Source: Actinomycetes bacterium
Lineage (GTDB): Bacteria > Actinomycetota > Coriobacteriia > Coriobacteriales > Atopobiaceae
NCBI GenBank assembly: GCA_029546925.1
Contig: JAKPQM010000036.1
Coordinates: forward strand, 1-64,000
Length of the DNA stretch: 64,000 nucleotides
Direction of reading: 5' to 3'
The notes beneath the pieces were generated by a model. That model saw only the letters and a list, made by a program, of their open reading frames with translations, was not told the origin of the DNA and did no database searches. The translations under genes and the position numbers were made by a program. Positions 24,266 through 63,908 of this stretch are shown here, one piece after another. The first letter of the stretch is position 1, and every line of letters begins with the position of its first letter.

Positions 24266-24311
24266 CCAGCAAGGCCCCTATCGACTGTACAGTCACCGGG
24301 GGTCTTGCTGG
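24266..24311. repeat. 46-bp palindromic repeat with GACTGTACAGTC core
   Basis: Nested palindrome: CCAGCAAG (24266-24273) pairs with CTTGCTGG (24304-24311), CCCC pairs with GGGG inside, and the centre is GACTGTACAGTC (24283-24294). The same core occurs three times at 95-base intervals near 42.86-43.07 kb. The remaining bases to 24598 hold nothing I recognise. Confidence 0.7.
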
Positions 24312-34050: not shown

Positions 34051-34150
34051 CCCTTTCCACGAACATCCCAGCCCGAACACGAACATCCTGCAGATGTTCA
34101 TGAACATCCCGGGGATGATCATGTTCGCATTGGGATGTTCGTGGAAAGGG
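34051..34150. repeat. 100-bp repeat with 20-bp terminal inverted repeats, copy 1
   Basis: Starts CCCTTTCCACGAACATCCCA and ends with its exact reverse complement, a perfect 20-base terminal inverted repeat. Internal sequence contains two further GAACATCC direct repeats and the palindrome-like CATCCCGGGGATG. A second copy, also exactly 100 bases and about 86% identical, lies at 63705-63804. It carries no coding capacity; a small non-autonomous mobile repeat or regulatory hairpin. Confidence 0.85.
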
Positions 34151-42844: not shown

Positions 42845-43090
42845 GCCCAGCAGGGGCTCTGATGACTGTGCAGTCACTAGGGTTTGACCAGCAATCTTGC
42901 CATCCAGAAGCTGTATCTGACATCCTTCTCGGAGCATGTGACCAGCAGGGGTTCCAGTGACTGTACAGTCAGCAACACAGGTGCTGGGCAGACTTCAAAA
43001 AGCAGGGGACCAGCGAGCCGTCTGCAGAGCGTTTCCCCAGTAAGGGTTCCAGTGACTGTACAGTCACTAGCTCAAATGCTGGGAGAACGT
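42845..43090. repeat. Three palindromes at exact 95-base spacing
   Basis: TGACTGTGCAGTCA (42863-42876), TGACTGTACAGTCA (42958-42971) and TGACTGTACAGTCA (43053-43066) start exactly 95 bases apart. Each is preceded by CCAGCAGGGG-like sequence and the last two are followed by TGCTGGG, giving nested palindromes of about 46 bases. The rest of each 95-base unit is only weakly similar. The same family occurs at 24266-24311. Located between groES and nadE. Confidence 0.8.
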
Positions 43091-45141: not shown

Positions 45142-47568
45142 TCAATCTCGCACCGACCAGCTCCCGAGCGGGGCGTTGGGATCGGCGTCGAGCGAGAGAT
45201 CCGCGAAGAGGCCCGCCTGATACGAGCGCAGCGCTACGAGCGCGATCATCGCCGCATTGTCGCCGCAGACCGAGAAGGGCGGCACGGTCACGCGCACGCC
45301 GCGCTTGCCGAACGCCTCGAGGTACGCGTCACGCAGCGCCGGATTGGCCGCAACGCCGCCGCCCACGCAGAAATCGGACACGCCGAGCTCCTCCACGGCC
45401 GTCACGGCCTTGGCCACCTGCACATCCACCACGGCAGCCTGGAACGACGCCGCAAGATCGGGCAGGTTGATGGGTCGACCCGCGCGGTTCTCGCCCTCGA
45501 TGTAGGTGATGACCGCGGTCTTGAGACCCGAGAGAGAGAAGCGGTAATCGTGGCTGTGCATCATGGCGCGCGGGAACGGGATGGCATGCGGATTTCCCTC
45601 GGCCGCCAACTGGGAGATGATGGGGCCGCCCGGATATCCCAAGCCGAGTGCCTTGGCAACCTTATCGAAGGCCTCGCCCACCGCATCATCGATGGTGGTA
45701 CCCAAGATATCGTAATCGCCCCAAGCGCGCACGTGCACGAGCATGGTGTTGCCGCCCGAGACGAGGCTCGCCACGAAGGGCGGCTCGAGATCGGGCGTCT
45801 CGAACAGGTTGGCGAAGAGGTGCCCTTCGAGATGGTTCACCGCGATGAGCGGCAAGCCTGTGGCGGCACAGAGCCCCTTGGCGAAGGCCACGCCCACCAC
45901 GAGCGCACCCACGAGACCGGGGCCTGCGGTGACGGCAACGGCGGAAAGATCGCGCGGCGTGAGCGTATCGCAACCGAGCGTCTCGCCGGCCTGCCTCAGC
46001 GCCTCCTCGAAGACGCCCACGATGGCCTCGGTGTGCTTGCGCGAGGCGATCTCGGGAACGACCCCGCCGAAACGCGCGTGGAAGTCGATCTGGGTTGCGA
46101 CGATGCTCGAGAGGATGCGGCCCTTCGCATCGATGACCGCGATGGCCGTCTCGTCGCATGAGGACTCGACGGCGAGGATGAGATCGCCTGCATCGGCGAG
46201 CGCAGCCTCTGCGGCTGGGCCGCGCGGGGATGCCTTGATGGGCCAGGGGCGGATGGATGCGGCAGGTGCGGGCAGTTCTTTATCTGCTGCAGCCAGAAGC
46301 GGGAGCTCGGCGGCCATGATGAGGGCACCGTGGCCGGGACCGTAGTAGTCGGGCCGCTCTCCCGTCTGCTCGAAACCGAGGGCCGTATAGAGGGCGCGCG
46401 CAGACGCGTTATCCACATCGACCTCGAGCGAGGCGGTTCGGGCATTGAGCATCTGAGCATCGTAGGTGAGGCGTGCGAGCAAGCGCGTTGCGATGCCCTC
46501 GCGGCGGCGCCCATCATCCACCACCACATCGCCGATCTCGAAATCATCGCCCGCGAGCACACCGCCCGCGAAGCCGATGATGGTGCCGCGATCATGCGCG
46601 ACCCACCAGCTGCGGCCGGGTTGCGCGATCTCGTCCTCGAACATCTGGCGCGTCCATGCCGCATGCGGCATAGCCCCGAAAGCACGGGCCTCGAGCTGGG
46701 CGACCTGCTCCACATCGTTGATCGACATGGGTCTGAGCTGGAGGTGGATGTCGGCCAGAGCATCTGCCGTGCCGGTCGTGGCAACGCTTGCCGGCTCGGC
46801 CATGCCCAGCCTCCTGCGCTCGTTCTCCTCGGCATCCGAGAGACGTGTGTACGTCGGCAGGACAAGCGCCGGATCGCCTTGGGATATGAACGGGGGGACG
46901 GGGGGCTTGTTCACACCATCCGGTGTGAACAAGCCCCCCGTCCCCCCGTTCATTGCGCGCAGAAGCCCTTCTCCGCTCGGATACCAGAGCGCCTCCTCAA
47001 GATAGCGGGTAAACCCCGCCTCCTCGAAGCGCAGCCTGTGCTTCTTGAGACCATCGCCCGCAAGCACCAGCTCGTCGCGGTCGGCGCGCTCGCTCCACGC
47101 CGCCACGCACGAATCGACCTTGGAGACGCTCTCTGCTGCAAAGGTGCGCTGAGGTCCGCCCTCATCGAGCAGGTAGATACCGGGATAGACCTCGCCACGC
47201 ATCGCGTCATCCACTACGCCGAGAAGCCCGCGCTCCCCCGCCAGCCAAGCCGTCCACGCTACAGCATCGAGTGTCGAGACGCCGAAGAGCGCACACCCTA
47301 AACCGCAGGCGATGCCCTTGGCCGTTGCGATGCCGATGCGCACGCCCGTGAACGAGCCCGGCCCGCGACCCACGATGACGGCATCCACATCTGCCATCGC
47401 AAGGCCTGCTTGTGTGAGAGCGTCGAGGAGGCTTCGCGTGAGCTCGACATTGGACTGACGGCGGCAGAGATGATCGCGGCATGCAAGAACCTCTGCCGAT
47501 CCCCCACCGATCCTGCCCACGGTAGCGCAGAGCATATCGGTGGAGGTGTCGAGTGCGATGACGGTCAT
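45142..47568 (-). CDS. TsaB-RimI-TsaD fusion (t6A tRNA modification)
   Basis: An 808-residue protein joining three enzymes. Residues 1 to about 260 are TsaB (MTVIALDTSTDMLCATVG; GRGPGSFTGVRIGIATAKG), the scaffold of the t6A complex. Residues about 275-430 are a RimI-type GNAT acetyltransferase (RPMSINDVEQVAQLEARAF; GIATRLLARLTYDAQ; LGFEQTGERPDYY). Residues about 460-808 are TsaD (ILAVESSCDETAIAV; HLEGHLFANLF; GVAANPALRDAYLEAF), which transfers threonylcarbamoyl to A37 of ANN-decoding tRNAs. An extra peptide at about 206-228 of TsaB is encoded by a perfect DNA palindrome. ATG 47568 has GGAGAG upstream. tsaE lies 6 kb away; tsaC is not in the window. Confidence 0.93.
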   Translation of the reverse strand: MTVIALDTSTDMLCATVGRIGGGSAEVLACRDHLCRRQSNVELTRSLLDALTQAGLAMADVDAVIVGRGPGSFTGVRIGIATAKGIACGLGCALFGVSTLDAVAWTAWLAGERGLLGVVDDAMRGEVYPGIYLLDEGGPQRTFAAESVSKVDSCVAAWSERADRDELVLAGDGLKKHRLRFEEAGFTRYLEEALWYPSGEGLLRAMNGGTGGLFTPDGVNKPPVPPFISQGDPALVLPTYTRLSDAEENERRRLGMAEPASVATTGTADALADIHLQLRPMSINDVEQVAQLEARAFGAMPHAAWTRQMFEDEIAQPGRSWWVAHDRGTIIGFAGGVLAGDDFEIGDVVVDDGRRREGIATRLLARLTYDAQMLNARTASLEVDVDNASARALYTALGFEQTGERPDYYGPGHGALIMAAELPLLAAADKELPAPAASIRPWPIKASPRGPAAEAALADAGDLILAVESSCDETAIAVIDAKGRILSSIVATQIDFHARFGGVVPEIASRKHTEAIVGVFEEALRQAGETLGCDTLTPRDLSAVAVTAGPGLVGALVVGVAFAKGLCAATGLPLIAVNHLEGHLFANLFETPDLEPPFVASLVSGGNTMLVHVRAWGDYDILGTTIDDAVGEAFDKVAKALGLGYPGGPIISQLAAEGNPHAIPFPRAMMHSHDYRFSLSGLKTAVITYIEGENRAGRPINLPDLAASFQAAVVDVQVAKAVTAVEELGVSDFCVGGGVAANPALRDAYLEAFGKRGVRVTVPPFSVCGDNAAMIALVALRSYQAGLFADLSLDADPNAPLGSWSVRD
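46886..46953. repeat. 68-bp perfect palindrome inside the tsaB domain
   Basis: Perfect 32-base arms (46886-46917 and 46922-46953) around a four-base loop, lying within the fusion gene. Read in frame it encodes MNGGTGGLFTPDGVNKPPVP plus a few residues, between GEGLLRA and QGDPALVLPTYTRLSD. Because it is a palindrome, the complementary strand encodes nearly the same peptide. It looks like a mobile palindromic element that inserted without breaking the frame. Confidence 0.9.
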
Positions 47569-63687: not shown

Positions 63688-63704
63688 TAGCGGGTGCTCA
63701 TTAG

Positions 63705-63804
63705 CCCCTTTCACGAACATCCCAGCTAAAACGCGAACATCCCGCAGTTGTTCGCGAACATCCCGGGGATGTTCATGTTCACATTGGAGTGTTCGTGGAA
63801 AGGG
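63705..63804. repeat. 100-bp repeat with terminal inverted repeats, copy 2
   Basis: Exactly 100 bases, about 86% identical to the element at 34051-34150, including the GAACATCCC repeats, CATCCCGGGGATG centre and TGTTCGTGGAAAGGG end. Its left end has one shift (CCCCTTTCACG). A solo left-end-like piece, CTCTTTCCACGAACACC, follows at 63841-63857. Confidence 0.85.
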
Positions 63805-63908
63805 CCTCTCGATGTGGTGTCTTATCGCGAATTCTTTGAACTCTTTCCACGAACACCGAAGCATGGCGGGGCTTGAACGCTGCGGATGTGATGGGTTGCA
63901 GGATAGTC

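Follow-up and report, generated by a model that had tools for sequence, protein, structure and literature searches.

The window, which is the whole stretch of 64,000 nucleotides that was analysed and comes from a Coriobacteriales bacterium, contains a single-copy tsaB-rimI-tsaD fusion gene with a perfect palindrome of 68 bases in its tsaB part (Table 1). tsaB is a tRNA-modification (t6A) gene, essential in many bacteria. The palindrome consists of two 32-nt arms that are 100 % complementary and separated by a 4-nt loop. The gene runs on the minus strand from an ATG at 47568 to a stop at 45142 and its frame, of 824 codons, is open through the palindrome, which is translated in the tsaB frame as MNGGTGGLFTPDGVNKPPVPPF(I) just ahead of the VLPTYTRLSD segment. 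The encoded insert includes a single Lys and no Arg. Both the perfect palindrome and its in-frame position in a TsaB loop, as given in the initial annotation, were thus confirmed. Two of the three reading frames across the palindrome are open, and the third contains two TGA codons, one per unit. The very stable mRNA hairpin proposed for the site agrees with the predicted fold of the insert by itself as RNA (-72 kcal/mol). The sole other match to tsaB in the genome is its own antisense reflection. A match to the fusion gene is present in 39 of 40 relatives and in all 29 good genomes.

Table 1. Features of the palindrome and its carrier gene (positions in the window).
Feature	Position	Strand	Basis
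tsaB-rimI-tsaD fusion gene (TsaB, GNAT and TsaD domains), carrier of the insert	45142..47568	-	
Ancestral linker remnant, gene-downstream side: A TCC CAA ahead of GDPALV	46879..46885	-	
In-frame coding insert, fusion-protein residues 206-228, MNGGTGGLFTPDGVNKPPVPPF plus the first two bases of an Ile codon	46886..46953	-	
REP unit, palindrome arm 1 (ATGAACGGGGGGACGGGGGGCTTGTTCACACC)	46886..46917	+	palindrome arms and family consensus
Loop between both units, 4 nt (ATCC)	46918..46921	.	
REP unit, palindrome arm 2, exact reverse complement of arm 1	46922..46953	-	
Ancestral linker remnant, gene-upstream side: CGC GCA adjoining the conserved EGLL	46954..46959	-	

The insertion site in relatives

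The insert is absent from all 38 aligned relatives, in which nothing insert-like is found at the TsaB loop and the linker at this place is unrelated in sequence, so that the peptide could be rejected as a conserved TsaB loop common to relatives. EGLL and GDPALV stand 14 residues apart in OH1046 (L010 = L048), the nearest relative, and the linker is of comparable length in most of the others, the loop varying in both sequence and length. At the DNA level the nearest relative has a linker of 42 bp where the window reads CGCGCA, then the palindrome of 68 bp, then ATCCCAA. By this comparison the linker lost about 29 bp and the net change is +39 bp, or +13 residues, which explains why the reading frame was kept. 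The element does encode about 23 residues, as had been noted, but the linker was replaced and the protein gained 13 residues, not 23. Inspection of the tsaB site by eye revealed neither a target-site duplication nor an IS terminal repeat.

TsaB is 85 % identical to that of the closest relative, G003, and Ka/Ks against this relative is 0.09-0.14 across all three domains, indicating purifying selection. The AlphaFold2 model, built from alignment A1, predicts disorder for the insert (pLDDT mostly <50 at residues 211-231, compared with about 90 in the TsaB core). The open frame and the predicted disorder of the added residues would account for the tolerance of the insert by an essential protein, and the insertion appears to have been nearly neutral.

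Family A in the genome

The palindrome is built from two copies of a unit of about 30 nt, RTGAACRGGGGGACGGGGGSNNTGTTCACG, arranged as an inverted doublet, and the repeat is referred to here as family A. The arm sequence recurs elsewhere: in a census based on pattern and BLAST searches of the own genome, the degenerate pattern found 26 units in 14 clusters, compared with 0 for the reversed control pattern, which places the palindrome far beyond chance. The units start with RTGAAC and include CGTCCCC within the unit, not at its end. No GTAG (or GTGG) tag was found at the unit foot and, lacking it, family-A repeats are not GTAG REPs in the strict sense. A lone unit forms a weak hairpin (stem GTGAAC..GTTCAC) and two units placed head to head give a near-perfect long hairpin; the family includes eight inverted doublets.

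The clusters are nearly all intergenic. Outside C34 and C41, whose clusters lie at contig ends, tsaB is the sole gene in which an intragenic copy was verified. The description of the palindrome as a gene-inserting element therefore holds for tsaB but not for nearly all of the other copies, which lie between genes. The neighbours of the clusters include genes for a barstar-like protein and a class II tRNA synthetase, SIMPL and a flavoprotein, two GHKL kinases, HydF and a radical SAM protein, a glycosyltransferase and ClpX, YkuD and SRP54, and others; among the genes with recognisable domains around the intergenic clusters, no common neighbour was found.

Four contigs have an end in or beside family-A repeats (C33 at its end, C34, C41 and C58 at their starts), and the true copy number is therefore probably above the count. 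At L038, L036 and L042 full units are accompanied by incomplete tandem copies that comprise the unit's first half (GTGAACAGGGGGACG or GTGAGCAAGGGGAC), sometimes mirrored on both sides.

Two transposases and their bracketing repeats

The genome encodes two Y1_Tnp (Pfam) genes of the RAYT/TIRYT class, one on contig C33 and one on C112. Their products are 48 % identical, have an HUH motif (NHVH / NHFH) and a YIHxNP motif, which read NHVH and YIHQNP in the C33 RAYT, and are closest to NCBIfam REP_Tyr_transpos, scoring under its cut-off. Residues 210-252 gave weak, sub-threshold matches to HTH / sigma-70 region 4, and a PDB sequence search with the RAYT gave no match.

One family-A unit (TGAACGCGGGGACGGAGGCTTGTTCA) is located directly before the ATG of the C33 RAYT gene and three inverted units (TGAACAAAGCCCCCGTCCCCTTGTTCA) follow it, the first of these supplying the stop codon. 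The C112 RAYT gene (G000:C112:8047-8796, L045) has a different repeat on both sides, family B, GTGACAAGGGGACAGGTCAC..GTCAC, of which 30 dispersed units and at least four inverted doublets are present in the genome. Each RAYT is paired with one repeat family, A with C33 and B with C112. Of 30 RAYT loci, counted over this genome and the relatives, 23 have the gene bracketed by an inverted repeat with a score of at least 22, mostly with a GGGAC core, and the reversed control gave one match with a score of 12. This survey used an 11-mer seed which the flanking units of the C33 RAYT escape; they were found by the unit pattern instead.

In the closest relative, G003, 0 family-A units were found and the C33 RAYT has no close homologue there (best match 49 %), from which it follows that family A tracks its RAYT. 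The RAYT locus of G003 (L106) has family-B-type repeats beside the gene.

A mixed cluster at L157 (G000:C71:30402-30507) comprises family-B units and one family-A unit, interleaved and tandemly repeated. Further intragenic copies were considered at L155 and L165, where an ORF spans family-B repeats, but these copies are intergenic, since the repeats precede the start Met and the Pfam domain of the gene.

The arrangement resembles REPIN/BIME systems (PMC3116915, PMC2817692) in its short palindromic units, mostly intergenic and often in inverted pairs giving a long hairpin, and in having one family per RAYT, whose units stand on either side of the RAYT gene itself. It differs from them in the missing GTAG foot tag, in the size of the family (a few dozen units only) and in the arms, which are identical at each locus and give near-perfect palindromes of 60-90 nt. 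With TIRtrons/TIRYT (PMC3733652), equivalent to TnpAY1 subclass 2.1 (PMC6006769), it shares a Y1 transposase of about 250 aa with a Y-x-x-x-N-P motif, and inverted repeats with a GGGGAC core flanking the gene; the weak, sub-threshold C-terminal signal may correspond to the helix-turn-helix of that type. Both transposases resemble the TIRYT / subclass 2.1 type, to which they may belong. TIRYT genes have been described as bracketed by inverted repeats with the core GGGGWSAS (PMC3733652), which GGGGACAG of family B fits exactly and GGGGACGG of family A fits except at one position. Dispersed dimers and clusters have been reported for some TIR families (PMC3733652, PMC6006769), and in a survey of subclass 2.1 REP-like sequences were not seen near those genes (PMC6006769). 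Unlike in the described systems, the TIRs found here are REP-like hairpins and one dimer lies in frame in an essential gene. The RAYT-bracketing repeats of Coriobacteriales form REP-like hairpins, and those of this genome are dispersed.

Origin of the palindrome

Five elements are directly established: the sequence, its family, the transposase with its flanking repeats, the empty site of the relatives and the identity of arms within loci. Taken together they point with good confidence to a REPIN/BIME-like doublet, most likely dispersed by the C33 RAYT, that landed in a TsaB loop with loss of linker and was tolerated there. The C33 enzyme, a RAYT/TIRYT-class HUH tyrosine transposase whose gene is bracketed by family A, would disperse family-A doublets, and it is this enzyme that would have moved the doublet, via single-stranded hairpin DNA. 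One doublet would then have landed in the variable TsaB loop between EGLLRA and GDPALV, about 29 bp of the loop being lost along with its arrival, and insertions out of frame would have been removed by selection. As HUH enzymes, RAYTs (TnpA-REP) cleave and rejoin single-stranded REP hairpins in vitro, and the mobile unit is considered to be the REP doublet (PMC3116915, PMC8266576), while dispersal of REPs by TnpA-REP in vivo is still unproven (PMC8266576). The RAYT account has to face the replacement of about 29 bp at tsaB in place of a clean insertion, an outcome that a simple IS200-like model does not predict, and also the survey that saw no REP-like sequences near genes of subclass 2.1, the likely subclass (PMC6006769).

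The identity of the arms is the less expected and most interesting detail of the case. In the eight family-A doublets the arms differ at 0-1 positions within a locus, whereas arms from different loci differ at 2.75 positions on average (permutation p = 4e-5). Family-B doublets likewise have locus-specific variants on both arms, e.g. TGACGGGGGG at C13:23427. The symmetry extends past the unit at C8 and C41, into neighbouring partial units and their rare variants, which gives arms of about 45 nt. Doublets mutating independently should look different, and the pattern therefore suggests that template-switch correction or hairpin-templated copying keeps the two arms alike; such homogenisation of inverted repeats is known even in coding DNA (PMC8604942). 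Arm identity within loci offers a means of testing how REP doublets arise or are maintained.

The same pattern is also expected if a single REP unit came first and fold-back (snap-back) synthesis at a stalled fork produced the second arm together with the linker deletion, a local inverted duplication that we regard as possible but clearly the less probable course. Arms identical at each locus and unlike those of other loci fit such an event, as does the symmetry exceeding the unit at C8 and C41, and the loss of about 29 bp at tsaB is compatible with a replication accident. Doublets with similarly short spacers are, however, found at eight family-A loci and in family B, which a mobile doublet fits equally well, and the arrival of the first unit in tsaB is left unexplained by fold-back synthesis.

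The initial annotation compared the palindrome with the Rickettsia palindromic elements (RPE), which by description are palindromes in frame in essential genes and are translated. The comparison stands as far as an in-frame palindromic repeat of mobile type is concerned, but the nearest kin by anatomy are the RAYT/TIRYT REP/TIR repeats, whose cognate transposase is present here. Many RPEs lie in genes and have no known transposase, whereas family A is almost wholly intergenic. The CGTC repeats, RPE-4 and RPE-6 of Rickettsia among them, are likewise listed with no known transposase (PMC3733652). An RPE-like or MITE repeat moved by another transposase, with a coincidental link to the RAYT, is improbable. 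The RPE hallmark is indeed a palindrome in frame in an essential gene, and the genome has two or more other palindromic repeat families for which no transposase was identified, but the family-A unit stands, inverted, on both sides of the C33 RAYT gene, and a different family surrounds its paralogue. The absence at the site, by eye, of a target-site duplication or an IS terminal repeat also argues against this reading.

An adaptive insert, acting as a regulatory mRNA hairpin or as a functional Gly/Pro-rich peptide in TsaB, is very improbable: the extreme stability of the RNA hairpin in a gene essential in many bacteria would suit it, but the insert is limited to one genome, the other copies are intergenic without a shared neighbour, the peptide is predicted to be disordered and relatives differ in the sequence and length of the loop. 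An assembly artefact or a decaying gene is hardly credible and was rejected, for although the draft contigs C33, C34, C41 and C58 end in the repeat, which evidently troubles the assembler, both flanks belong to the same single-copy gene, collinear with 38 relatives, with an 824-codon open frame and a Ka/Ks of about 0.13.

The dispersed REPIN/BIME-like doublet in tsaB adds a clean new case to a phenomenon that is uncommon but already known, in-frame palindromes being on record from Rickettsia and several phyla. Its occurrence in a different phylum, which the initial annotation had noted, is no novelty in itself, as intragenic REPs were earlier reported in several phyla (PMC3733652). The GTAG/CGTC REPs described there include in-frame dimers in conserved genes, often of 20-30 residues and presumed to be tolerated in loops or linkers; the repeat family, transposase subclass and phylum are different here, and tsaB is unnamed in the main text of that paper (PMC3733652). 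No earlier report of REPs in Coriobacteriia was found in the literature searched, and the present case extends in-frame REP insertions to this class. It also ties an in-frame insertion to an identified transposase and to a near relative whose site is cleanly empty, and it provides two paralogous RAYT/repeat pairs side by side in one genome, RAYT-driven dispersal of REPs being still unproven. As a speculative and rather doubtful generalisation, subclass-2.1 TIRYT/RAYTs of Coriobacteriales might maintain live REP dispersal, in which copying of single-stranded hairpins would yield perfect palindromes and occasionally new disordered loops in essential proteins.

Other repeats are present in the window. 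A palindromic repeat of about 85-100 bp, CACGAACATCCC...GGGATGTTCGTG, occurs at 34051-34150 and 63704-63805, also at G000:C52:82775-82860 and in total at about 21 loci of the genome; no transposase was identified for it. A short repeat family around GACTGTACA/TGTACAGTC is located at 43030-43089, 42942-42988 and 24266-24311. The copy at 43030 has about 20 genomic matches, which frequently occur in close groups (C11, C139, C120), and the copy at 24266 shares the motif by eye only.
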